This document shows, in pieces, positions 5,216 to 43,179 of a DNA stretch of 44,938 nucleotides. The stretch's first letter is position 1. Each line of letters begins with the position of its first letter. A program made the position numbers and the translations under genes. Origin of the DNA: a virus; IMG/VR virus record IMGVR_UViG_3300017598_000124, positions 1 to 44,938 of that record, one strand, 5' to 3'. The notes under the pieces are model-generated. The model made no database searches. It saw only the letters and a list, made by a program, of their open reading frames with translations, and had not been told where the DNA came from.

Positions 5216-6924
5216 GAACCACTGTAGATGTACAACACCTGCTAGACTCAGATACTCTAGCTAAGGAGATCTCCAGTAAATGGACTCTCTGGAACAACAA
5301 CCGTGCTGAGTGGGTGGAGGAGAAGGAGGAGCTACGTAACTACGTCTTCGCTACTGACACACGTACTACCACCAACGCTAAGCTCCCTTGGGTGAATAGC
5401 ACTACCACACCTAAGCTCACACAGATCTATGACAACCTCAAGGCTAACTACACAGCTGCTCTGTTCCCTAACAGCAACTGGATGCGCTGGGAGGCTGACG
5501 ATAGTAACTCAGCTACAGCAGCTAAGAGAGATACTATCCAAGCCTATATGGAGAACAAGATCCGTCAGGGAGGTTTCGAGAAGACTGCTGACCAACTGGT
5601 TGATGACTTCATCCTCTACGGTAATTGCTTTGCGACTATTGAGTTCCAGAGTAACTACACTGAAGTAGATGAGGAACAGATCGTAGGTTACATCGGCCCT
5701 AAGATTGTCCGTGTCTCTCCTCACGATATTGTCTTCGACCCTACAGCTGCTGAGTTCAAGGACTCCCCTAAGATTACTCGTACTCTTATGTCCTTTGGTG
5801 AACTAGCTAAGAAGACTGAGTTTGCTGACACCTTCCGTAAGCTGGTCGACAACAGACAGAAGGTAGCTTCCGCTGACTATACATCTAAATCTAAAGGGTA
5901 CATTGCTGATGGCTTCGCCTCTATCGAACAGTACTACGACTCTGAGTATGTTGAACTCCTCACCTTCTACGGTGACATCTATGACCTAGAGTCTGAGGAG
6001 CTTATGGAGAAGAGACGTATCACTGTAGTAGATAGAGCCTACGTCCTCCACGATGAGCCTATCGCTTCATGGCTAGGTGCTGATCCTTTCTTCCATGCTA
6101 GCTGGCGTAGCCGCCCTGACAACCTCTACGGTATGGGCCCTCTTGATAACCTCGTAGGTATGCAGTACCGTATTGACCACCTTGAGAACCTTAAGGCTGA
6201 TGTCTTTGATCAGATCGCTCTGCCTATCCTCAAGGTCCAAGGAGATGTAGAAGACTTTGAGTATGCCCCCGGTGAGCGTATCATCATGGGTGAGGAAGGT
6301 AATGTAACTCCTCTGGTCCCTGACTCAACAGCTTTGAATGCTGACTTCCAGATTCAAACACTAGAGAATAAGATGGAAGAACTAGCTGGTGCTCCTCGTC
6401 AAGCTATGGGTATCCGTACTCCCGGTGAGAAGACAGCCTTTGAAGTACAGTCCTTGCAGAATGCAGCTGGACGTATCTTCCAACATAAGGCAGCTAAGTT
6501 CGAGAGAGAGTTCATTGAACCTGTCCTCAACTCTATGCTTGAAGCTTCTCGCCGTAACATGGACGTATCAGATGTTATCCGTGTACTAGACGATGAGACA
6601 GGAGCTCTCCTCTTCCAGAACATCACTAAAGAGGACATCACAGCTAAAGGTAAGATCGTCCCTGTAGGTGCTCGTCACTTCGCTGAGAGAGCTCAACGGG
6701 TACAGAACATCACTCAGCTTCTCCAACTTAAAGCTGATCCAACTATCGGAGCCCACCTCTCAGGTAAGAGTATTGCTAAACTCCTCGCTGAAGAACTGGG
6801 TGAAGAGGCTCTCTACGGAGAGAACATCGCAGTAGTTGAACAGGCTGAGACACAGAGTGCAGCCTTGGATGCTGAGGCTGACCTAGAAGAACAAATGCAA
6901 GTAGCAGCTGAAGAAGGACTGTAA
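5212..6924 (+). CDS. Portal protein (head-to-tail connector)
   Basis: A 570-residue protein that would form the dodecameric ring through which DNA enters and leaves the head. Length, position directly after TerL, and regions such as L-P-W-V-N-S, Y-G-M-G-P-L-D-N-L, G-A-P-R-Q-A-M-G-I-R and T-A-F-E-V match podoviral connectors of the T7 gp8 type. It starts with TTG overlapping the TerL stop codon. The acidic, Gln-rich C-terminus ends E-E-G-L. The bases at this end (GAAGGACTGTAAGATGCCT) resemble the 3' ends of the two 70-bp repeats just downstream. Confidence 0.92.
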   Translation: MRTTVDVQHLLDSDTLAKEISSKWTLWNNNRAEWVEEKEELRNYVFATDTRTTTNAKLPWVNSTTTPKLTQIYDNLKANYTAALFPNSNWMRWEADDSNSATAAKRDTIQAYMENKIRQGGFEKTADQLVDDFILYGNCFATIEFQSNYTEVDEEQIVGYIGPKIVRVSPHDIVFDPTAAEFKDSPKITRTLMSFGELAKKTEFADTFRKLVDNRQKVASADYTSKSKGYIADGFASIEQYYDSEYVELLTFYGDIYDLESEELMEKRRITVVDRAYVLHDEPIASWLGADPFFHASWRSRPDNLYGMGPLDNLVGMQYRIDHLENLKADVFDQIALPILKVQGDVEDFEYAPGERIIMGEEGNVTPLVPDSTALNADFQIQTLENKMEELAGAPRQAMGIRTPGEKTAFEVQSLQNAAGRIFQHKAAKFEREFIEPVLNSMLEASRRNMDVSDVIRVLDDETGALLFQNITKEDITAKGKIVPVGARHFAERAQRVQNITQLLQLKADPTIGAHLSGKSIAKLLAEELGEEALYGENIAVVEQAETQSAALDAEADLEEQMQVAAEEGL

Positions 6925-6925
6925 G

Positions 6926-7102
6926 ATGCCTAAAGGACAAACTAGTCGCCCAATAACACGTAAGTATAAAGGCAAGGGGAGTAATGCGATAACGGCCTCT
7001 AAAATGATGGAAGAGACTAGGAAGGACTTCGCTAAATCCCCTGGGTTTAGAAGGGCCGCCAATAGAGCTACCAACGAGATGCGACGGAAGAAGAGGAAGT
7101 AG
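6926..7102 (+). CDS. Small highly basic protein 1
   Basis: 58 residues beginning M-P-K-G-Q-T-S-R-P and ending R-R-K-K-R-K. It is the first of three consecutive small basic ORFs between portal and scaffold. ATG follows the portal stop by one base, with GAAGGA as ribosome site inside the portal end. The strong positive charge would suit DNA or RNA binding, for example a minor packaged protein, but I recognise no family. The stop codon lies inside the first copy of the 70-bp repeat. Confidence 0.7.
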   Translation: MPKGQTSRPITRKYKGKGSNAITASKMMEETRKDFAKSPGFRRAANRATNEMRRKKRK

Positions 7103-7159
7103 GCAGTGGACACCAAATGCCTTAGAACAACACCTCAAGAAGAAGGATTATAAGATGCC
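7090..7159 (+). repeat. 70-bp direct repeat, copy 1 (deletion derivative of the 7769 gene start)
   Basis: It matches 7389-7458 with one mismatch. The sequence is a chimera. The first 30 bases equal 7753-7782 (one mismatch), the end of a basic ORF plus the GTG start of the 7769 gene. The next 28 equal 7863-7890, inside that gene. The intervening 80 bases are missing, joined at a shared ATG. The remnant still has GTG followed by 15 codons (7106-7153) in a shifted frame, and its AAGAAGGA supplies the ribosome site for the next basic ORF. Confidence 0.9.
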
Positions 7160-7382
7160 TAGAAGTAAACAGAAAACACCGACCCGTAATAAAACAGCAG
7201 CCCGTAAGGGTGCTGCACATACTAAAGCTGCCCAAGAGATTAAGGAGTTTGGAAGGATTACACCTGAGGCGCGTAAGGCTATAGACGCTGCTCAAAAGAT
7301 TTCTGACAGCAAGGCTAAGCAGTTCAAACGCAAACGGCTCAAGGGCCGTACCCCACCCCAAGGCAACTTCGGCCAAATGTAG
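7155..7382 (+). CDS. Small highly basic protein 2
   Basis: 75 residues, rich in Lys, Arg, Ala and Thr, beginning M-P-R-S-K-Q-K-T. The start ATG and its AAGAAGGA ribosome site belong to repeat copy 1. The ORF ends G-Q-M just before repeat copy 2; bases after the stop still resemble the K-K-R-K coding end seen in its two neighbours. Its family is unknown. A role in condensing or accompanying packaged DNA is only a guess from charge and location. Confidence 0.65.
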   Translation: MPRSKQKTPTRNKTAARKGAAHTKAAQEIKEFGRITPEARKAIDAAQKISDSKAKQFKRKRLKGRTPPQGNFGQM

Positions 7383-7388
7383 GCTAAG

Positions 7389-7458
7389 GAAGAGGAAGTA
7401 GGCAGTGGACACCAAATGTCTTAGAACAACACCTCAAGAAGAAGGATTATAAGATGCC
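7389..7458 (+). repeat. 70-bp direct repeat, copy 2
   Basis: Second copy of the unit at 7090-7159. It carries the same internal deletion relative to the 7769 gene, so the deletion preceded the duplication. A 15-codon GTG remnant (7405-7452) is again followed, one base later, by the ATG of the next basic ORF. Confidence 0.9.
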
Positions 7459-7765
7459 AGCTGGAAGATCATCACGACCAGACAATCGTAAAGTAAAGAA
7501 GGCTATTACACGCCAGAAGCAACGGGCTGCTCTAACCGCGCGTGTGAAGAAACGTAAACCCGCTAAAGGCAACGAGGCCACCCAAAAGAAAAATACAACA
7601 AAGGTCTCTACTTCAGCTAAGGCTAGAGCAGATGCAAAGACTATCAAGGATTCCAAGCTGCGTAACGTTACGAGGCGAACAGCTAAGCAAGTAGGAGATA
7701 ACCTTCTGCTTGACGGAAGCTCCGCACGTACTCGTGAACGTATTAAACGGAAGAAGAGGAAGTAG
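7454..7765 (+). CDS. Small highly basic protein 3
   Basis: 103 residues, very rich in Lys and Arg, beginning M-P-A-G-R-S-S-R-P and ending I-K-R-K-K-R-K. It resembles basic protein 1 at both ends but has a longer middle (A-K-A-R-A-D-A-K-T-I and R-R-T-A-K-Q), so the two may be diverged duplicates. It is coupled to the upstream region by repeat copy 2 and is followed after three bases by the GTG of the next gene. A nucleic-acid-binding virion or packaging role is plausible but unproven. Confidence 0.7.
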   Translation: MPAGRSSRPDNRKVKKAITRQKQRAALTARVKKRKPAKGNEATQKKNTTKVSTSAKARADAKTIKDSKLRNVTRRTAKQVGDNLLLDGSSARTRERIKRKKRK

Positions 7766-7768
7766 GCA

Positions 7769-7999
7769 GTGGACACCAGATGGCTCAAGGGCTACACTGA
7801 TACTGAACGTAGAAAGAAGATCGTCAAGGGACATAAACCAGCACTAGACGATCTAAGGAATGTCTTAGAACAACACCTCAAGAAGAAGGAAGCAGTTCGA
7901 GACTATAGCTCTCCCGGTTGGGAACATGAGCAAATAGCTGTCAACGAGTACAACCAAGCACTCGATGACTTAATCAAACTAATCACAATTAAGGAATAG
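7769..7999 (+). CDS. Conserved-looking small protein between portal and scaffold
   Basis: 76 residues with a GTG start (M-D-T-R-W-L-K-G), mixed charge and probable helices; residues 27-45 and 60-76 look amphipathic. No family is recognised. Its first 14 bases and its segment 7863-7890 are the source of both 70-bp repeats upstream, so it is the intact parent of two internally deleted copies. GTG lies three bases after the basic ORF, whose AAGAAGAGGAAG end supplies the ribosome site. Confidence 0.65.
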   Translation: MDTRWLKGYTDTERRKKIVKGHKPALDDLRNVLEQHLKKKEAVRDYSSPGWEHEQIAVNEYNQALDDLIKLITIKE

Positions 8000-8006
8000 G
8001 ATCACC

Positions 8007-8771
8007 ATGTCCTCCGTATTCGATCAAGACTCCACCACAAGTCAAACCAGTGACGACACTTCTAGTCAATCAGAGACCAACGATGACTACATTAAGAAGG
8101 TCGTAGAACTCAAAGGAGATCAGTGGAATGATCCCCAAGCTCTGGCTAAAGGGTACCTGAACGCTCAGACCCACATCCAAGAACTTGAGGAGAAGGCCAA
8201 GGTAGCTGAAGCTGACAAGAATAAGGCTGACTACCAAGCTGAAATCCTAGAACTCCTGAAGGGCAAGGCACAGGCTACCGACCCTAACGGCACTGAACTT
8301 AAAGGTAGCGTCACCGAGCAGAAGGCTGATACCTCAGTTGCTCCTGTAGGTGAAGAGGATATTAAAAGCCTTGTTTCTAAAGCTCTGGCAGACCGAGAAG
8401 CTACTTCTCTTGCTGAAGCTAACCAAGTCAAAGCTGACTCTATGATGGTTGATGCCTTCGGAACTGAAGCTCACAGCACTATGGACAAGCGTTCTAAAGA
8501 ACTTGGTATGTCTGTTGACCGCCTCAAGGATATCGCTCAAGAGTCCCCTGACGCTTTCATGGCCCTTATGGGTCAGAGTCCAGCTAAGGAGACTAACCAA
8601 GGTATCCGAGGGACAGTCAATACAACTGGCAACTTCACTAAAGGCCACGACCGGAATAGTAAGTACTACTTCGATCTCATGCGTAAAGATCCTAAAACGT
8701 ATGGTCGCCGTGAAGTCCAACAACAAATGCTGGAAGACAAGAAACGTCTTGGTTCCCGCTTCTTCACATAA
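8007..8771 (+). CDS. Capsid assembly scaffolding protein
   Basis: 254 residues, acidic, Gln- and Lys-rich and largely helical, with a Ser/Thr/Asp-rich N-terminus and a predicted coiled segment around E-L-E-E-K-A-K-V-A-E-A-D-K. Its position directly before the major capsid gene and its composition are typical of podoviral scaffolds, which guide procapsid assembly and then leave. The C-terminus (K-K-R-L-G-S-R-F-F) is basic, as expected for the coat-binding end. Confidence 0.85.
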   Translation: MSSVFDQDSTTSQTSDDTSSQSETNDDYIKKVVELKGDQWNDPQALAKGYLNAQTHIQELEEKAKVAEADKNKADYQAEILELLKGKAQATDPNGTELKGSVTEQKADTSVAPVGEEDIKSLVSKALADREATSLAEANQVKADSMMVDAFGTEAHSTMDKRSKELGMSVDRLKDIAQESPDAFMALMGQSPAKETNQGIRGTVNTTGNFTKGHDRNSKYYFDLMRKDPKTYGRREVQQQMLEDKKRLGSRFFT

Positions 8772-10272: not shown

Positions 10273-10965
10273 TTGCCCACCATTCAACACTCAGTACTCG
10301 GTAGCGGAGAGCTCCATGAACCTAAAGGTGCTTCAGGTGCCTCCTCCAACGAGACTTATGTGTCCGATGGTGCAGGATCAGGTACTTGGAAAGAACCGGA
10401 ACCTAAAGGCATTAGCTCTGCCACTGACGGTCAAATCTACGAGGCTGACGGAGCTGGCTCAGGTAGCTGGGTCACAGCACAGTCTACAGGAGTAGAGGAT
10501 AAGACTAATTCAGGAGGTCAACTAGCTACTGTCTCAGGAGTACCTAAACTCCTAGAGATTGATGGTGTAGGATACAGCTATGAAGACTTCATTCCTAGTC
10601 GCACGTCAGTCTGGGACCTAGCCTCTAACGAGATGGACTTCGGTGCAGCTGGTTGGTTAGTCGGGGATACAGCGCAAATCCGTATTGGCTTCACAGTCGT
10701 TACAGCATCGAACAACGATAACTTTCTCTTTGGGGTTGACTTCGCTGTCGGAGGAGTAAACCCATTCACAGTGCAGGCTATCGACCTTTACGAGAAGAGT
10801 CCCGGTACACACACACATAGCGTGAGCTTCCCCTTCTTTATTGGCTCAACAGACGTCCTAGATTTCCCAGCTCAGATTACTGTCACCTCGGACAATAGCT
10901 CCAACACAGCTAAGTTAGAGGCTGTAACTGTCTTCCACTACCCTAAGATTCTAGTGAGGACTTAA
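10273..10965 (+). CDS. Putative head fibre / decoration protein with DGAGSG repeats
   Basis: 230 residues with a TTG start after TAGGAGG. The N-terminal part has two repeats of about 25 residues, each E-P-K-G then x-[TD]-Y-x-x-D-G-A-G-S-G-x-W, a pattern I associate with trimeric fibre and decoration proteins. The C-terminal 130 residues look like a beta-sandwich, perhaps receptor- or glycan-binding. It lies between the decoration protein and the tail tube genes, so a head-attached or collar fibre is the best guess. Confidence 0.5.
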   Translation: MPTIQHSVLGSGELHEPKGASGASSNETYVSDGAGSGTWKEPEPKGISSATDGQIYEADGAGSGSWVTAQSTGVEDKTNSGGQLATVSGVPKLLEIDGVGYSYEDFIPSRTSVWDLASNEMDFGAAGWLVGDTAQIRIGFTVVTASNNDNFLFGVDFAVGGVNPFTVQAIDLYEKSPGTHTHSVSFPFFIGSTDVLDFPAQITVTSDNSSNTAKLEAVTVFHYPKILVRT

Positions 10966-10966
10966 G

Positions 10967-11692
10967 ATGAAGAAGACACTACTCCAGATAGTTCAAAGTA
11001 TTTTAAGTGACATGGACTCAGAGGATGTTAATAGTCTCTCTGACTCTATCGAGGCACAACAGGTAGCTTCTATTGTCGAGGATACATACTTCAACATCAT
11101 AGCTACTAGGGATATCCCTGAGCACTATGAACTCTTGAAGCTTACAGCTGCTTCAGACTCAGCTTACCCTACTCACTTCCACTACCCTACTCAGACTAAG
11201 GAGGTTAGTAACGTATGGTATGAGGACACTGATGGCTCCTACAGAGAGATCACATGGTGTGAGCCTATGGACTTCCTCACCCGTACAGACTCAGCTGGAT
11301 CAGAGTATGATACAGTCCTAGACAAGAATGGGTCTACTAAACTCCGTATCCGCAATAACCAAGATCCTACGTACTACACATCCTTTGACGATAACTGGAT
11401 GGTCTTCAACTCTTATGATAGCTCAGTAGACTCAACACTTCAAGAGTCCAAGGTGAGAGCTTACGGTGTTGTCTACCCAACCTTCACACGTTCAGATGGT
11501 TTCATCCCTGACCTAGACAACACTATGTTCCCTTACCTGATTGCTGAATCTAAATCAGTGGCTATGTCCCTCCTTAAAGGACAGTCAGACCCTAAGATTG
11601 AACAGGCTGCTAGACGTCAGAAGTCCTATGTACAGAATGATATGTACAAAACTAAGAGAGCTAACAAGTGGTCTAATTATGGCAGAAAGTAA
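10967..11692 (+). CDS. Tail tubular protein A (T7 gp11-like gatekeeper)
   Basis: 241 residues. Length, position before the very large tail tube B gene, and the N-terminal helix (L-Q-I-V-Q-S-I-L-S-D-M) followed by V-E-D-T-Y-F-N-I-I match gp11-type adaptors, which sit below the portal. The segment T-F-T-R-S-D-G-F-I-P-D-L and the later M-S-L-L-K-G-Q-S-D-P-K-I-E are also typical. ATG follows the preceding stop by one base. Confidence 0.8.
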   Translation: MKKTLLQIVQSILSDMDSEDVNSLSDSIEAQQVASIVEDTYFNIIATRDIPEHYELLKLTAASDSAYPTHFHYPTQTKEVSNVWYEDTDGSYREITWCEPMDFLTRTDSAGSEYDTVLDKNGSTKLRIRNNQDPTYYTSFDDNWMVFNSYDSSVDSTLQESKVRAYGVVYPTFTRSDGFIPDLDNTMFPYLIAESKSVAMSLLKGQSDPKIEQAARRQKSYVQNDMYKTKRANKWSNYGRK

Positions 11693-31515: not shown

Positions 31516-31971
31516 CTAGTCCCAAGACTCCTCGTCACTTACACGTTCTTCAATCTCAACAGCCTTGAGTACCTTCACTGACTCCAAGCGAGTACCCGGA
31601 CGGTAGGCTGTAGTGTAGACGGACAACTCAACTTCAATCTCTGAGCCATTACCAAGAGAACCATCATCCTCAAAGGACCATGCTGTCCCATCAGCTTTAG
31701 TTACCTGAGGGGCACCTGATGCCCAGTCAAAACGATCCTTATGTTTACGGACAAACTTGACAGAGAAGTTACCATCGTCATCGAACTTCCCTTTCTTAGC
31801 TGACCCTGAGTCTTTAAGGATCTGCTTATTCTCCTTATCCAAGACAACATCAATAGTGTATGCCCCATCAAACTCTACATAAGCACCTTCGAAACCTTGC
31901 ATGTCACGGTTATCTTCGAAGACACGAGCCCATTGAGCTTGACCTTTAAGTGTAATTTTCTTTGTAGCCAT
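31516..31971 (-). CDS. Single-stranded DNA-binding protein (T7 gp2.5-like)
   Basis: 151 residues, predicted OB-fold beta-rich, with an acidic C-terminal tail ending V-S-D-E-E-S-W-D, the usual contact point for polymerase and helicase. It lies first but one in the operon driven by the promoter at 32127-32155, followed by the exonuclease and resolvase: the recombination set of T7-like phages. The identification rests on tail, size and context. Confidence 0.75.
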   Translation of the reverse strand: MATKKITLKGQAQWARVFEDNRDMQGFEGAYVEFDGAYTIDVVLDKENKQILKDSGSAKKGKFDDDGNFSVKFVRKHKDRFDWASGAPQVTKADGTAWSFEDDGSLGNGSEIEVELSVYTTAYRPGTRLESVKVLKAVEIEERVSDEESWD

Positions 31972-32170: not shown

Positions 32171-33184
32171 TCAGTGAGTTTCTTTCCAATCTTTACCGAT
32201 TACATAGTCTCCTGCTAGGGGGCAGAAGAGATCAAACTTCTCCCCAGTTTCTTCTAGAGCCTTACACTTCAGCTCACCTAAACGTACCGCTTCCTCGTAT
32301 GTAGGGCACTCAGACTGCCACTCATCATGCACCATATCTACTTGTCTGAACCTGATGCCTTCATCCTTAGCTAACTGTCTCCATAATACATTGGCATGTT
32401 TCATAATCACAGCTTCACCATTCTGTAGGTACCCAGCTAACATGAGGTGTTGGCTTGAGCACATAACCTTACGACCATCTAGTCCGTAGAAGTATCCTCT
32501 TACAGCATCCCTAGGGATCATACTAGTCTTGATCTTCTTAAGTTCAGGGAGGCTGTCAAGGAAATTCTTCTCAGCTGTCTTAGCTTGGGCTACTGAGCAC
32601 TGGAGGATAGATGCAATCTTAGGGAGACCAGCACCTAGGAGCCACGCATAGATGAAAGTCTTCGAGTCATCCCTAGTCCTACAGATAGGACCTAAGGCTT
32701 GCTTGTTAAGGTTGTGGATGTCAGTCTCATCTTCCTTCTTACCTGACACAATAGCGTCACGATAGGCTTCTGACTGCATGTAGTGAGCTAGGATACGTAG
32801 TTGGATACCCTCAGCATCAGCACCTACAAGGTAATGATCAGTCTTGAAGAGAGCCCTAAGGTCAGCATCATACTTAGCCTTAACTTCTTCGACAGCCGAC
32901 CGTGGTTTACCTGAGAAGATAGAAGGAATGTTAGCTTGGTTAGGGGAGCTGTGAGACATACGTCCTGTCCATGCACCAATGTGCCAGAACTTACCATGTA
33001 TCCTACTGTCCTCTTGGACAGCCTGTAGCCACTCCTCAAGGCTGCTCCTGCGTCCTTCTAGGGTGAGCCACTTGGCAAGGTCCTTAGCAGCCTCAGGGGC
33101 GCTCTCAGGGAGTGTCTTAAGGTTCTCCTCTGAGCACTTCCATCCGTAGTGTTTGTAGTGATCAAGGTCTCTTGGTTTACCCAA
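32171..33184 (-). CDS. DNA polymerase family A, C-terminal (polymerase) fragment
   Basis: 337 residues holding all three polymerase motifs. Motif A is G-A-D-A-E-G-I-Q-L-R (Asp123), motif B R-D-D-S-K-T-F-I-Y-A-W-L-L-G-A-G (Lys175, Tyr179), motif C V-H-D-E (286-288). The exonuclease half is a separate gene at 36385-37254. Compared with T7 polymerase, the steric-gate Glu is Gln128 and Tyr530 is Leu183. The N-terminus begins in a linker region (K-P-R-D-L-D-H-Y). TTG start overlapping the upstream cassette gene; AGAATTCTT precedes it. Confidence 0.9.
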   Translation of the reverse strand: MGKPRDLDHYKHYGWKCSEENLKTLPESAPEAAKDLAKWLTLEGRRSSLEEWLQAVQEDSRIHGKFWHIGAWTGRMSHSSPNQANIPSIFSGKPRSAVEEVKAKYDADLRALFKTDHYLVGADAEGIQLRILAHYMQSEAYRDAIVSGKKEDETDIHNLNKQALGPICRTRDDSKTFIYAWLLGAGLPKIASILQCSVAQAKTAEKNFLDSLPELKKIKTSMIPRDAVRGYFYGLDGRKVMCSSQHLMLAGYLQNGEAVIMKHANVLWRQLAKDEGIRFRQVDMVHDEWQSECPTYEEAVRLGELKCKALEETGEKFDLFCPLAGDYVIGKDWKETH

Positions 33185-33380
33185 AGAATTCTCCCGGTAA
33201 TTTAAAGTCCATAGGATGATTCAACCACTTCTCAACTTTCTCTTCATACGCCCACTTAGCTTCCTTATCTTGAATGGAGAGCCACAGGGAGCCATACCCC
33301 GCCCCGTCTTGCATTGTTCCTTTCTCGTGGTTACAGAACACCCAGCCTTTATCTCTATATCGGTGTAGATGTTGTGTCAT
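33177..33380 (-). CDS. LPxEFLE cassette protein 13
   Basis: 67 residues from M-T-Q-H-L-H-R-Y; ATG overlaps the stop of cassette 12. Early strand R-Y-R-D-K-G-W-V-F-C-N, C-terminus F-K-L-P-G-E-F-F-G. Its end (GGAGAATTCTTTGGGTAA) contains the TTG start of the polymerase fragment, so it is directly coupled to it. The final Gly replaces the usual Glu, and the stop is TAA rather than TGA. Function unknown. Confidence 0.75.
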   Translation of the reverse strand: MTQHLHRYRDKGWVFCNHEKGTMQDGAGYGSLWLSIQDKEAKWAYEEKVEKWLNHPMDFKLPGEFFG

Positions 33381-33592
33381 TCTAAGAACTCCGCTGGTAG
33401 AGTAAGTTTGAACGCATCTCCCGTCGTATAAGGCCAGATACATCCCATCTTTAAGTCCCGAGAGAGGAGACTGGCGTGTGTGTAAATTCCTCGAAGACCA
33501 TCTGACAAGACATAATCTCCGTCACGTTCCTTGCTCTTTCGATAAAGTGACAGTCTTCCCTTTGTCTTCCGTATCTCTATAACTTCTACCAT
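33377..33592 (-). CDS. LPxEFLE cassette protein 12
   Basis: 71 residues. ATG 33592 is chosen because AGAGGAG lies nine bases upstream, the same junction layout as other family members. It overlaps the zinc-finger gene by 71 bases in another frame. Early strand S-L-Y-R-K-S-K, then D-G-D-Y-V-L-S-D-G, C-terminus L-T-L-P-A-E-F-L-E. The stop overlaps the next ATG (GAATGA). Confidence 0.75.
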   Translation of the reverse strand: MVEVIEIRKTKGRLSLYRKSKERDGDYVLSDGLRGIYTHASLLSRDLKMGCIWPYTTGDAFKLTLPAEFLE

Positions 33593-33719
33593 ATTCAAAG
33601 GACTCCTCTATCCATGCGTCTTCAGCTATTGTTTCTTTGATTGAGGCTGCACAACTAGAACAGTAGTAGTCGTCACCCCACTTAGCAGTCTTCTGTGCGT
33701 TACAACATTTACATCTCAT
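33522..33719 (-). CDS. Small zinc-ribbon protein inside the cassette cluster
   Basis: 65 residues with C-x-x-C (3-6) and C-x-x-C (20-23), a zinc ribbon. ATG 33719 overlaps the stop of cassette 11. About residue 42 it reads W-I-E-E-S-F-E-Y-G, and the bases there (GAGGAGTCCTTTGAATATGG) look like a degenerate cassette junction that also starts cassette 12. The ORF may once have ended there and now runs on 20 codons. Zinc binding suggests nucleic-acid or protein contact. Confidence 0.65.
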   Translation of the reverse strand: MRCKCCNAQKTAKWGDDYYCSSCAASIKETIAEDAWIEESFEYGRSYRDTEDKGKTVTLSKEQGT

Positions 33720-33928
33720 TCTAGGAACTCCTCGGGGATAAAGGATATACAACAGGTGACTCCTTTAAGGCTTCTATTTTCAACCCAACCTTGTATGTCC
33801 TTGCCAGTCCTTAAGTCTTTGAAGTAGCCTACACGAGACAGTTTAACGTAGACCCCATCATGGCCTTTGTTCCATATAAGGGTAGTCCCTGCTCCATAGT
33901 TCTCGTAGTCTTTCTCTCTCAGTTTCAT
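33716..33928 (-). CDS. LPxEFLE cassette protein 11
   Basis: 70 residues. Early segment T-T-L-I-W-N-K-G-H-D-G-V-Y-V, a central Q-G-W-V-E-N and C-terminus S-F-I-P-E-E-F-L-E. The stop overlaps the ATG of the zinc-ribbon gene, with GAGGAG in the E-E codons as its ribosome site. Function unknown. Confidence 0.78.
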   Translation of the reverse strand: MKLREKDYENYGAGTTLIWNKGHDGVYVKLSRVGYFKDLRTGKDIQGWVENRSLKGVTCCISFIPEEFLE

Positions 33929-34161
33929 TCGAAGAACTCATACGGCATGTAGAAACTTTTACTTCTGTCACCGTAGGCCAAGCTTGTGCCATTCTGAAAA
34001 GAATCTTTATTAAAGAAGGTCTTTCGCTTTGACATACTCAACCCACCGGACACACCGTAGGCTCTCTTCACGCTAATACATCCATCCTCTTTAATCACTC
34101 CAGCTCCGTTAGGTAGTTCCCGCCATGTGAGCCCCCCGCAGTACTCTTTATATTCCTTCAT
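33925..34161 (-). CDS. LPxEFLE cassette protein 10
   Basis: 78 residues, first gene after the primase-helicase, whose end supplies GAGGAGG. Early segment G-G-L-T-W-R-E, then several Gly and basic residues, C-terminus S-F-Y-M-P-Y-E-F-F-E. Here the residue before Glu is Tyr, so the ribosome site for the next gene is weak (ATGAG) although the peptide tail is kept. This favours selection on the protein, not only on the ribosome site. Confidence 0.78.
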   Translation of the reverse strand: MKEYKEYCGGLTWRELPNGAGVIKEDGCISVKRAYGVSGGLSMSKRKTFFNKDSFQNGTSLAYGDRSKSFYMPYEFFE

Positions 34162-34163
34162 CC

Positions 34164-35753
34164 TTAGTCTACCTCCTCTAGTGTAAATGTTTCAGGGTCA
34201 AAGATAACCTGACCAGCGTAACCAGTATACGATGTAGGTCTATTCTTAACTACTGTCAGTGTTGTAGTGTTCTTCACATCCTCGTCAGTAGACATCTTAT
34301 CCCTGCTTAGCTTGACAACAACATGTGCTCTCTTGCTGATCATACGTGAGTCTCTGACCTGACCATCATCATTCTCATGTGCAATGGTGATGATACCTAC
34401 GTTAAGCTCGGCAGACATCCTAGCTAGTTGGGAAGACATGTCCCTGAGTATAGGCTCAACCCCATCCTTAGCGTCAAGAGAGTAAGCCAAGTCTTGGATA
34501 GGCTCGAACATAATGTACTTACAGTCGCACACCTCAGCAAAGTACCTGACTCTATCCAAGATGAAGCTAGCATCAGCGTCAGTGTCAACACCAAACTGAT
34601 AGAAGTTACCATCAGCTGTCATCTCTTCGATAGCCTCTAGTACTTCTTCTTCAGGTGTCCCTCTGTAGGATGGGAGAAAGACTTGAGCTAAGTTACCCTT
34701 CTCATCAGGTTGGAACTCCGAGTCTTGGATAGTTACATTCTTCTTCAAGTGGTAAGATGCAATGCCTAGGAGGCCTCTCTTCTTAGTCTCTTCAAGGTGC
34801 ATAGTAGCGAAGGGGATAGTAGGATACTCAGACAAGAGGGTGTACTCCAGCTTCCTCATCAACTCAGTCTTACCGACACCCTCTGGCGCTTGGATAACTG
34901 TGAAGGCACCTTGAGCTATGCCACCTACTGAGTCATCAAAGTCCTTGATACCTGTCGGTACCATAGCGTAACCAGTGTCCCCTTTGATAATGTCCTTGAA
35001 CTCAGCGGGAGAGTTGAAGACACCTGAGGGTGTGAACTTAGTCTTAGTATTCCAGAAGGCAAACTTGAAGTCGTCCCCATCACCAGCCTGAAGGAACTCA
35101 TTAGCATCCTTGTGTTTAGTGAGAAGTACTCGGTAGGTCTTAGAAGGGAAAGCCTTATAGATCTTCTCCGCTGCCTTAGCCCCAGCTGGGTCATTCTCCA
35201 TACACAAGACAATATGATCGAAGGAGTCTAGGTAATCATGGCAGTTCTTAAGGAGATGTTTAGAGATACCAGCTGAAGGTAGACCAACAACAGGGATCTT
35301 ACCTTCAAGCATCTGATAGGCACTGGCTGTATCTTCTTCTCCCTCTACAATGACAATGAACTTGTGAGACCCAGCGTTGAACTTATCCATACCGAAGAGG
35401 TGGTCCCCTGTGAACCCTCTATTCTTGGTGAAGTCCTTGGGTAGGTATCGGTACTTGTCCTTGTGGGGATAAGGATAGACACGTCTAACCATCTTACCTT
35501 TGTCATCAAAGGAGGTGAGGATACCGTACTTCCTAGCAGCCCTAGGTTTAATACTCCGGTACTCAACACCTTCTCTGTCGTCTAGTTCAGGGTGCATGTA
35601 GCTACTCCCTCCTGTTTCTCTATTAGACCCACCACTCTTCTCGCATTGGTGACAGAAGAAACCTCCATCAGCCCACAAGGAGTAGCACTCATGTCCCTTG
35701 CAGTGAGGACAATCAAGGTGCGTCTTAATAGGGTCATCTGTTCTTGCATTCAT
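34164..35753 (-). CDS. Primase-helicase (T7 gp4-like)
   Basis: 529 residues joining primase and replicative helicase. Zinc motif C-P-H-C (residues 15-18) with C-x-x-C about 17 residues on; TOPRIM E-G-E-E-D (about 136) and M-E-N-D-P-A-G; RecA-like helicase Walker A A-P-E-G-V-G-K-T-E (about 288-296), followed by a Walker B-like I-M-F-E-P and the C-terminal I-I-T-I-A-H-E-N segment. It unwinds the fork and primes lagging-strand synthesis. It sits between the two halves of DNA polymerase with cassette genes on both sides. Confidence 0.93.
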   Translation of the reverse strand: MNARTDDPIKTHLDCPHCKGHECYSLWADGGFFCHQCEKSGGSNRETGGSSYMHPELDDREGVEYRSIKPRAARKYGILTSFDDKGKMVRRVYPYPHKDKYRYLPKDFTKNRGFTGDHLFGMDKFNAGSHKFIVIVEGEEDTASAYQMLEGKIPVVGLPSAGISKHLLKNCHDYLDSFDHIVLCMENDPAGAKAAEKIYKAFPSKTYRVLLTKHKDANEFLQAGDGDDFKFAFWNTKTKFTPSGVFNSPAEFKDIIKGDTGYAMVPTGIKDFDDSVGGIAQGAFTVIQAPEGVGKTELMRKLEYTLLSEYPTIPFATMHLEETKKRGLLGIASYHLKKNVTIQDSEFQPDEKGNLAQVFLPSYRGTPEEEVLEAIEEMTADGNFYQFGVDTDADASFILDRVRYFAEVCDCKYIMFEPIQDLAYSLDAKDGVEPILRDMSSQLARMSAELNVGIITIAHENDDGQVRDSRMISKRAHVVVKLSRDKMSTDEDVKNTTTLTVVKNRPTSYTGYAGQVIFDPETFTLEEVD

Positions 35754-35974
35754 CTGAAGAATCCTTCTGGTAATCTGAAAGAAAAAGACTCACCTTCAGC
35801 AGACTGAGGGACCCAAGCATGGAAAGACTCCTCAACTTCTGGTGCGTCAATAAGGTATACGGCTTCCTCTAATCCGAGGCGGCCTAAACCCTCTTGCATC
35901 CACTCTTCGTGGATATCAAGGAAGACCCAATCCCTAGACTGATCCCATTTATAAAGTGCCTTGCCCGTACTCAT
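35750..35974 (-). CDS. LPxEFLE cassette protein 9
   Basis: 74 residues. Early strand K-A-L-Y-K-W-D-Q-S-R-D-W-V-F-L-D, acidic middle, C-terminus F-R-L-P-E-G-F-F-R, the most divergent tail (E-G for x-E, final Arg). AGAAGGA in the tail serves the primase-helicase start, whose ATG overlaps this stop. Confidence 0.75.
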   Translation of the reverse strand: MSTGKALYKWDQSRDWVFLDIHEEWMQEGLGRLGLEEAVYLIDAPEVEESFHAWVPQSAEGESFSFRLPEGFFR

Positions 35975-36201
35975 TCTAAGAATTCTCCCGGTACCCTGAA
36001 CCTCAGGTTACCTTCTCTATGGTAGCCATTAACCTCTAAGATTCCTTTAAAAGTGCCACAAGGGTCGACACTGAACATATCCTCAAACCAGCCTTGTGTA
36101 CGAAAACCTTTTGTATAGCCAAAGATATTCCTTGACCACTCATCAGGTTTATTATAGTCATCACTTCTCCCTTGGTATAGTCCGGGCCTAAGCTCTGTCA
36201 T
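35971..36201 (-). CDS. LPxEFLE cassette protein 8
   Basis: 76 residues. Early strand P-G-L-Y-Q-G-R-S, a central T-Q-G-W-F-E-D-M-F, C-terminus L-R-F-R-V-P-G-E-F-L-E. ATG overlaps the stop of cassette 7 with AAGGAG upstream; its own stop overlaps cassette 9. Confidence 0.8.
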   Translation of the reverse strand: MTELRPGLYQGRSDDYNKPDEWSRNIFGYTKGFRTQGWFEDMFSVDPCGTFKGILEVNGYHREGNLRFRVPGEFLE

Positions 36202-36392
36202 TCTAAGAACTCCTTTGGTAGTAGGTAACTGCTAGGTTGACGATAGGACCAACCTGTACTTGTTAAATCACTATGTATACGAAGGTTGCCGACGACACGA
36301 GCGAAGCTATTCATAGTGATCACCCCTTGCCCCTCCCGGTATAGACCGCAACAGTCCTCAAAAGTCTTCATCAAATCAGAATTTCTAGGCAT
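36198..36392 (-). CDS. LPxEFLE cassette protein 7
   Basis: 64 residues from M-P-R-N-S-D-L. ATG lies inside the last codons of the polymerase exonuclease fragment, preceded by AAAGGAGG. Early strand C-G-L-Y-R-E-G-Q-G-V-I, then S-T-G-W-S-Y, C-terminus Y-L-L-P-K-E-F-L-E. This cassette marks the break in the DNA polymerase gene. Confidence 0.8.
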   Translation of the reverse strand: MPRNSDLMKTFEDCCGLYREGQGVITMNSFARVVGNLRIHSDLTSTGWSYRQPSSYLLPKEFLE

Positions 36393-37254
36393 ACGTACCT
36401 CCTTTACGTGCTTCTCTGATAGCCTTGATATGACCTTCTGTCTTCTCATGTGGGTTCCACCCAGCTTCCCATAGGGTATCAATCCTATCTTGAGGAGACC
36501 CCGGATTGAAATCTTTGTAGTCGTAGCACACTAACTCATCCCCTTCTATCTCAGTCTTAGGGTGCTCAGACAGAGCTGTTATGACATTGGAGAAGAGAGA
36601 ACCATCCTTCTTAGTACGATACTTAATGCGTTTAGACTCAACCAGCTTAGACCCGAAGGCTGCTCTAAAGGACACCTCAAGCTCCTCCTTCTCTTCCTTG
36701 ATCTGGTCAAGTAACTCCTTAGCTCTGTCAACATCAAACAAGAAACCATTACGCTGCATGTTAGAGCAGATAGCAGCCATCTCATGTTCAACCTTCAAGG
36801 CTTGTTCCCACTTAGGGTCCTTGATATACTTCCAGAAGTAGTTGACAATAGCTTCCTCAACGATAACGTCTTGGTCACAGTAGTCTCCCATCTCTTCAGT
36901 GTACTCATCCCAGCCTCCTGTGTAGTCTCCCTTGTATACTCTGAGGTACTCCCCTAACTCCTTGAGACTATGTGTCCTGAACTTAGAGTAGTTAACTGTA
37001 CGGCTCACTACGAAGGTGTCAATGATGCTCTCAGGCTTGATGTCTAGCCCTGTAAGCTTGTTGATGACAGGTAGGTCAGAGGACATACCATTATGGAACA
37101 CCCACTTCTCAGGTTCCTTGTCTAGTACAAAGTCCTTGAAGTAGCCCATGTCAGTGAACCTCTGCACCCCACCTTTGTTCAACTCCTTCAAGGAGATGCA
37201 GTGTATCTTACTCTCCCTGTCTCCATCCCATTCAGCATCAGCTACTAAGATCAT
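36385..37254 (-). CDS. DNA polymerase family A, N-terminal (3'-5' exonuclease) fragment
   Basis: 289 residues with the three exonuclease motifs: A-D-A-E-W-D (Exo I), F-H-N-G-M-S-S-D-L-P-V (Exo II) and Y-C-D-Q-D-V (Exo III). It runs through the region before the polymerase palm (L-W-E-A-G-W-N-P-H-E-K-T-E-G-H-I) and stops at A-R-K-G-G-T-Y-A, which holds the AAAGGAGG site for cassette 7. The rest of the enzyme is at 32171-33184. Together the parts give 626 residues, about full length for phage relatives, with all motifs present, so a two-subunit enzyme is likely rather than a dead gene. Confidence 0.92.
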   Translation of the reverse strand: MILVADAEWDGDRESKIHCISLKELNKGGVQRFTDMGYFKDFVLDKEPEKWVFHNGMSSDLPVINKLTGLDIKPESIIDTFVVSRTVNYSKFRTHSLKELGEYLRVYKGDYTGGWDEYTEEMGDYCDQDVIVEEAIVNYFWKYIKDPKWEQALKVEHEMAAICSNMQRNGFLFDVDRAKELLDQIKEEKEELEVSFRAAFGSKLVESKRIKYRTKKDGSLFSNVITALSEHPKTEIEGDELVCYDYKDFNPGSPQDRIDTLWEAGWNPHEKTEGHIKAIREARKGGTYA

Positions 37255-43102: not shown

Positions 43103-43179
43103 TGGAGGCCTCGGAGGGACTCGAACCCTCAACCTGCTGATTAGAAGTCAGCTGCTCTATCCAGTTGAGCTACGAGGCC
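43103..43179 (-). tRNA. tRNA-Arg (anticodon UCU)
   Basis: Cloverleaf on the - strand: acceptor GGCCTCG/CGAGGCC, anticodon stem GCTGA/TCAGC with loop CTTCTAA (anticodon TCT), T arm with GGTTCGAGTCC, and an encoded CCA end. The base before CCA is T, unusual for a bacterial Arg tRNA. It reads AGA and AGG, which the phage uses often (TerL, portal) and GC-rich alphaproteobacterial hosts use rarely. Confidence 0.95.

Follow-up and report, generated by a model that had tools for sequence, protein, structure and literature searches.

We confirmed that a 44,938-base Cobavirinae-like virus record (IMG/VR record IMGVR_UViG_3300017598_000124, taken here at its full length as the window) encodes a T7-type family A DNA polymerase as two genes, with its motifs intact. 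In the reading that we favor, with a probability of about 0.75, this is a two-chain polymerase whose chains must assemble; it arose by a frameshift in a linker followed by a re-start of translation, and the junction then gathered genes. The two genes are the following.

36385-37254, minus strand: exonuclease chain, 289 residues, ending ...GHIKAIREARKGGTYA before the stop codon; DEDD 3'-5' exonuclease, N-terminal palm strand and thumb
32171-33184, minus strand: polymerase chain, 337 residues, TTG start at 33184-33182, beginning LGKPRDLDHYKHYGW...; rest of the thumb, palm and fingers

The exonuclease chain is equivalent to residues 1 to about 361 of T7 gp5 and the polymerase chain to residues about 362 to 704. 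PF01612 matched the exonuclease half (E 2.6e-5) and PF00476 the polymerase half (E 7e-30). Because consecutive stretches of one PHROG, phrog_17, were matched by the exonuclease half (profile 673-942) and the polymerase half (912-1233), we take the two to be parts of one polymerase. The exonuclease catalytic residues D6, E8, D60 and D129 (DEDD), together with Y125, fall in conserved alignment columns. On the polymerase chain D123 of motif A, R171, K175 and Y179 of motif B and D287 of motif C align with T7 D475, R518, K522, Y526 and D654. The catalytic residues are retained across the split relatives, with the exception of an N at the first Asp in one locus. The protein thus has motifs A, B and C and the DEDD exonuclease domain of T7-type family A enzymes; exonuclease and polymerase lie in two open reading frames (ORFs) and not on the single polypeptide typical of the family, which is unusual but does not exclude membership. 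The polymerase chain is 48-76% identical to its relatives, and the thumb segment of the exonuclease chain is conserved at F249, P251, W266 and P268. The ratio of nonsynonymous to synonymous substitution rates (dN/dS) stayed below about 0.33 for the two halves alike wherever dS could be estimated for a pair, a rough figure as many dS values exceed 1, and was 0.03-0.07 in the closest pair of relatives (L057 and L105). Both genes are therefore kept by purifying selection.

PF00476 matched once in the whole record, and the same search returned no second family A polymerase. The initial annotation, made from the letters alone, had recognized the split with its intact motifs. This holds, the two halves look functional, and the two-subunit polymerase that it proposed is the best reading of the sequence. 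The split is not an assembly error, since the same layout recurs in PQ867845, deposited as a complete circular genome, and in other contigs.

When T7 gp5 and sixteen fused relatives were aligned with the window proteins by MAFFT L-INS-i, the cut fell between T7 gp5 residues of about 355 and about 363. It lies in a lineage-specific linker of variable length (25-45 residues) that T7 and SIO1 do not have. A placement of the linker on T7 by HMMER was found to be misplaced and was superseded by this alignment and by structure. An AlphaFold2 model of the exonuclease chain aligned to residues 1 to 361 of T7 gp5 (6p7e) with Z 19.0 and a root mean square deviation (rmsd) of 12.1 A over 262 residues, the high rmsd being due to differently positioned domains. 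The model of a fused relative (L003), with a mean confidence score (pLDDT) of 92.9, aligned to 2ajq with Z 36.8 and 2.8 A over 546 residues, so that the T7 polymerase fold was recovered from both models. In the L003 model the cut site is a short loop (about residues 288-300) joining two helices. Chain 1 is thus more than an exonuclease, comprising the exonuclease, the palm entry and the thumb, and chain 2 is an incomplete polymerase domain. When the exonuclease chain was folded alone, pLDDT over its last 40 residues fell in successive blocks to 76, 68, 65 and 50, as opposed to 92-95 at this place in the fused model, the pattern to be expected of a stretch that packs on chain 2. The thumb segment of chain 1 would therefore need chain 2, and we infer that the two assemble into one predicted enzyme. 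The thioredoxin-binding loop, about 75 residues in the T7 thumb, is much shorter in this group according to the alignment with T7.

Related loci were collected from IMG/VR and from reference phages and classed by reading frame, giving 87 non-identical loci (designated by L numbers), of which 61 were fused and 26 split at the same linker, corresponding to T7 gp5 residue ~361. The halves are adjacent or overlapping in 12 split loci (L010, L046-L048, L052-L056, L082 and the phages ICBM2 and CRP-5), are separated by small or HNH genes in eight, and have the primase between them in six (the window, L002, L006, L017, L018 and L027). The other reference phages, CRP-4, CRP-9, CRP-13 and SIO1, are fused. 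The content of the junction ranges from nothing in L010, through cassette-like small ORFs (L007, L008, L009, L011), other small ORFs (L083), an HNH gene (PF02945; L057, L105) or the primase alone (L017, L018), to small cassette genes plus the primase in the window, L002, L006 and L027. At the junction of L051 is a gap of 665 bases that yielded no complete ORF of 40 codons. As their exonuclease segments and primases are identical, L017 and L018 were counted as one lineage. Outside the six loci with the primase between the halves, it sits upstream of the exonuclease gene wherever its position is visible. Three fused polymerases (L022, L024, L087) carry an in-frame thumb insert of roughly 140-170 residues, about 20 residues downstream of the split site.

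In the window the halves are 3.2 kb apart and enclose nine genes, namely seven small genes with a common C-terminal tail (cassettes), a zinc ribbon and the primase-helicase:

36198-36392, minus strand: cassette (tail LPKEFLE), first after the exonuclease gene; its ATG (36392-36390) overlaps the exonuclease stop codon
35971-36201, minus strand: cassette (tail VPGEFLE)
35750-35974, minus strand: cassette (tail LPEGFFR)
34164-35753, minus strand: primase-helicase, 529 residues; phrog_239 (E 1.5e-95), Toprim and DnaB_C
33925-34161, minus strand: cassette (tail MPYEFFE)
33716-33928, minus strand: cassette (tail IPEEFLE)
33522-33719, minus strand: small zinc-ribbon-like protein with C-x-x-C pairs; family matches weak, similar ORFs in L002 and L027
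33377-33592, minus strand: cassette (tail LPAEFLE)
33177-33380, minus strand: last cassette (tail LPGEFFG), with GGGAG (33195-33191) and the polymerase TTG in its 3' end

At the exonuclease end, a ribosome binding site AAAGGAGG at 36405-36398 is followed after five nucleotides by the first-cassette ATG, in the +1 frame and inside the exonuclease 3' end. At the other end, the polymerase TTG lies inside the 3' end of the last cassette, 6 nt past the GGGAG; the polymerase start also falls within the tail of the last cassette in L002, L006 and L027. The junctions are thus at cassette ends, as the initial annotation had described them. In all 12 adjacent loci the polymerase gene is in the +1 frame relative to the exonuclease gene and has its start codon inside the exonuclease 3' end (ATG in 11, GTG in L054), in most cases behind an AAAGGA-like sequence encoded by the conserved K-G-H of the exonuclease chain. 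The ribosome binding site and ATG that now start the first cassette of the window are at the position of the polymerase start in these adjacent-split relatives. That the start at the exonuclease end now serves a cassette would fit a gene that had been split before the insertion took place at its start junction.

A stepwise origin can be proposed on this basis. A single ancestral gene would have been broken in the linker by a frameshift, and translation would have re-started at a ribosome binding site and start codon that pre-existed in the exonuclease 3' end, giving overlapping and presumably translationally coupled ORFs. Genes may later have been inserted at this start junction, cassettes in the clade of the window and an HNH endonuclease in some Veravirus-like relatives, and in the lineage of the window the primase-helicase would also have moved between the halves. 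At present the 3' end of the last cassette would provide the ribosome site and the TTG for the polymerase chain. The split and the insertion are separate events, the split most likely being first, and we infer the same order for the window's own clade; the small genes now between the halves are thus probably not the cause of the split.

A phylogenetic tree of the exonuclease half placed the split loci in two groups, that of the window (support 100/97) and a Veravirus-like one, and the split group of the window was sister to a wholly fused clade. Monophyly of all split loci was rejected with an approximately unbiased test p value (p-AU) of 0.00036, or 0.03 with three fused loci allowed inside, and the polymerase tree requires five changes between the fused and split states (bootstrap 4-6). 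Because a single split clade was rejected and the polymerase tree needs several changes, there were at least two breaks of the linker, or a single break followed by re-fusion; the change counts do not separate these. The insert-free L010 and the primase-only L017 and L018 are in the exonuclease clade of the window or share its layout, and in the second clade the HNH-bearing L057 neighbors the insert-free L056. The polymerase halves of the latter two are close (dS 0.37) and their exonuclease halves distant (dS 1.32), which suggests recombination at the HNH-bearing junction of L057. The loci with the primase between the halves formed one clade in the exonuclease tree (97/80); in the polymerase tree L018 grouped with L009, and in a primase tree built by a quick method L006 and L018 were apart from the window. 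Given this conflict, recombination or two arrivals of the primase are possible. In L083 the exonuclease belongs to the split clade of the window and the primase groups with those of CRP-9/CRP-13-type phages, an apparent primase replacement. A mirror-tree test of the exonuclease-polymerase pairing gave a partial r of 0.785 given the primase; it depended on L083 and was not retained.

Several observations weigh against the favored history or against parts of it. The fused locus L014 falls inside the split group of the window in the exonuclease tree. The exonuclease, polymerase and primase trees disagree, and recombination blurs the history that they record. L010 is the one insert-free member on which the order of split and insertion in the clade of the window is based, and it could have lost an insert. 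Without L083, exonuclease, polymerase and primase all correlate alike (r 0.87-0.89), so that co-evolution of the two halves is not specific. Finally, the loss of confidence at the end of the exonuclease model may partly be an end effect.

The initial annotation had attributed the split to a cassette insertion of nine genes into an intact polymerase gene. Both break points of the window do lie at cassette ends, and in four lineages (the window, L002, L006 and L027) each of the two junctions has cassettes. This explanation nevertheless seems very unlikely to us. The linker is split without a cassette in L010, ICBM2, CRP-5 and nine other loci, whose halves have nothing between them, and other relatives enclose just the primase (L017/L018) or an HNH gene. 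A single insertion cannot give the layout, as the primase lies upstream of the exonuclease gene elsewhere, which makes the order exonuclease, primase, polymerase a change of gene order. Furthermore, cassettes occupy many ordinary gene junctions, and the occupation of one more needs no gene breakage. The comparison with related roseophage polymerases that the annotation had suggested thus bore out the split, found again in ICBM2 and CRP-5, but not its cause, the halves being adjacent in those phages. We also think it rather unlikely that a homing endonuclease gene (HEG) broke the polymerase first and that its later loss left either overlapping ORFs or space for other genes. L057 and L105 do have an HNH gene (PF02945) precisely at the split, the polymerase gene of L026 is interrupted at a different site by an HNH ORF, and HEG-split phage genes are known and have been proposed for T4-like genes (PMC2988022); the same paper notes, however, that a HEG may invade a gene that is already split. 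The HNH-bearing loci are nested among insert-free ones, no HNH gene was seen at the junction in the window or its clade, and the 12 adjacent loci agree in frame relation and start internally, the pattern to be expected from a point frameshift.

Two further possibilities concern the product and not the origin of the split. The chains might not assemble, chain 2 acting as an exonuclease-free polymerase and chain 1 as an independent nuclease. Although stand-alone exonuclease subunit families exist (phrog_403) and jumbo phage polymerases with a separate exonuclease have been reported (PMC7824862), this is quite improbable here, because chain 1 holds the equivalent of T7 1-361 including the palm entry and the thumb, which chain 2 lacks, and because its thumb segment is conserved at the four residues given above. 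Least credible is the continued production of a full-length polymerase, whether by trans-splicing, through a split intein or, in the adjacent loci, by programmed frameshifting. Split inteins in phage polymerases have been reported (MIJ3, PMC6892783) and the adjacent loci retain one frame relation, but only some 10-15 residues per chain extend beyond the aligned core, which leaves no space for an intein, and neither chain has extra sequence that could be Int-N or Int-C. The halves of the window are separated by coding genes that fill the interval, no intron was matched in the window by Rfam at gathering thresholds, and no obvious conserved slippery site was present in the overlap region of the adjacent loci. 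The absence of intein and intron features stated in the initial annotation is in line with these results.

The minus-strand module to which the two genes belong runs from a CobS-like AAA ATPase through cassettes, a CobT-like protein, a cassette, the exonuclease gene, three cassettes, the primase-helicase, two cassettes, the zinc ribbon, two cassettes and the polymerase gene to a Gp2.5-like single-stranded DNA-binding protein (31516-31971, minus strand), which is followed by further replication and nucleotide genes. A tRNA gene at 43106-43179 (minus strand), at the start of the early region, was the only Rfam match in the window.

Altogether 13 small minus-strand ORFs of about 65-80 residues between 33177 and 43027 have unlike bodies and a common C-terminal P-x-E-[FY] motif; ORFs with this tail also occur in L002, L006, L007, L009, L011 and L027. 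The motif was found 13 times on the gene strand and not once on the opposite strand of the window, and the tail DNA GGAGTTCTTMGAATGA occurred 8 times compared to 0.12 expected. The version of the tail is genome-specific (EFLE, EFLS, EYLL, KEYT). Many tails contain a Shine-Dalgarno sequence and overlap the following start codon. The idea that the tail merely results from the ribosome site of the following gene being translated was rejected: Glu was encoded by GAG in 44 of 59 cases against a background of 63%, the Pro codon varies freely, and the motif is present even without an overlapping gene. The tail looks like a protein motif that in many cases also supplies the Shine-Dalgarno sequence. 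The cassettes matched no PHROG family, and a hidden Markov model built from all 13 found bodies that were not clearly alike and few relatives beyond the seed. Other inserted elements were seen in related loci. In L026, an HNH (PF02945) ORF at 10520-11156 interrupts the polymerase gene at the KTFIYA of motif B in an intron-like manner, with no Rfam intron reported, and the primase ORF (5770-8271) carries an intein-like insert at the Walker A site. A metallophosphoesterase match in L013 (12820-14490) is broken into two parts with about 900 bases between them, which suggests a further inserted element.

Among annotated phages, T5S1-k141_653015 (PQ867845, Zobellviridae; Cobavirinae) is the closest and shows the order exonuclease, small genes, primase/helicase, small genes, polymerase. 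Its polymerase and exonuclease chains are 75.5% and 62% identical to those of the window, it has one cassette ahead of the primase where the window has three, and we found no account of its split. In Lentibacter phage ICBM2 and Roseobacter phage CRP-5 (Veravirus) the split falls in this linker too, and both records list two polymerase genes; these phages differ from the window by adjacent or overlapping halves, an upstream primase and a separate split clade. The word split was not mentioned in the searched portions of the papers on these two phages. In the marine, Zobellviridae-related OM43 phages MEP401 and MEP402, a family A polymerase is in two ORFs with a small ORF between them (PMC10580990), but the cut is before motif A, inside the palm, whereas that of the window is in the thumb linker. 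As in the 43A/43B type of split polymerase, two conserved ORFs of the window jointly cover one polymerase. Gene 43 is split in this way in Aeromonas phages 25 and 44RR, where the two chains are reported, for phage 25, to co-purify and to be active, and the split NrdA of Aeh1 is fully functional (PMC2988022). 43A/43B differs from the window in being a family B polymerase whose junction holds a HEG or untranslated sequence. PolB of Methanothermobacter thermautotrophicus likewise consists of two polypeptides but is an archaeal family B enzyme (PMC7776575), and T7 gp5 shares fold and motifs with the polymerase of the window but is a single chain with a large thioredoxin-binding loop. Split phage polymerases are therefore already known. 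A partial literature search returned no description of this linker split, of its repeated occurrence or of a primase lying between the two genes, and the site and layout are apparently undescribed.

Beyond its origin, one may speculate, as a doubtful extension, that the two-subunit design is no tolerated accident but was recurrently selected, that separate translation makes the ratio of proofreading to catalytic chain settable, and that the junction is a standing site of gene gain, which could even bring a primase-helicase into the operon unit of the polymerase. The loci of these closely related marine phages, whether fused, split with adjacent halves, split around small inserts or split around the primase, form a graded natural series, which lets the steps from a single-chain to a two-chain replicative enzyme be tested directly. 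Automated annotation can be corrected accordingly: two DNA polymerase entries in such phages are one enzyme, and to read the exonuclease half as a separate nuclease would mislead studies of replication and fidelity. The linker, finally, offers a natural place at which to divide a family A polymerase into two chains.

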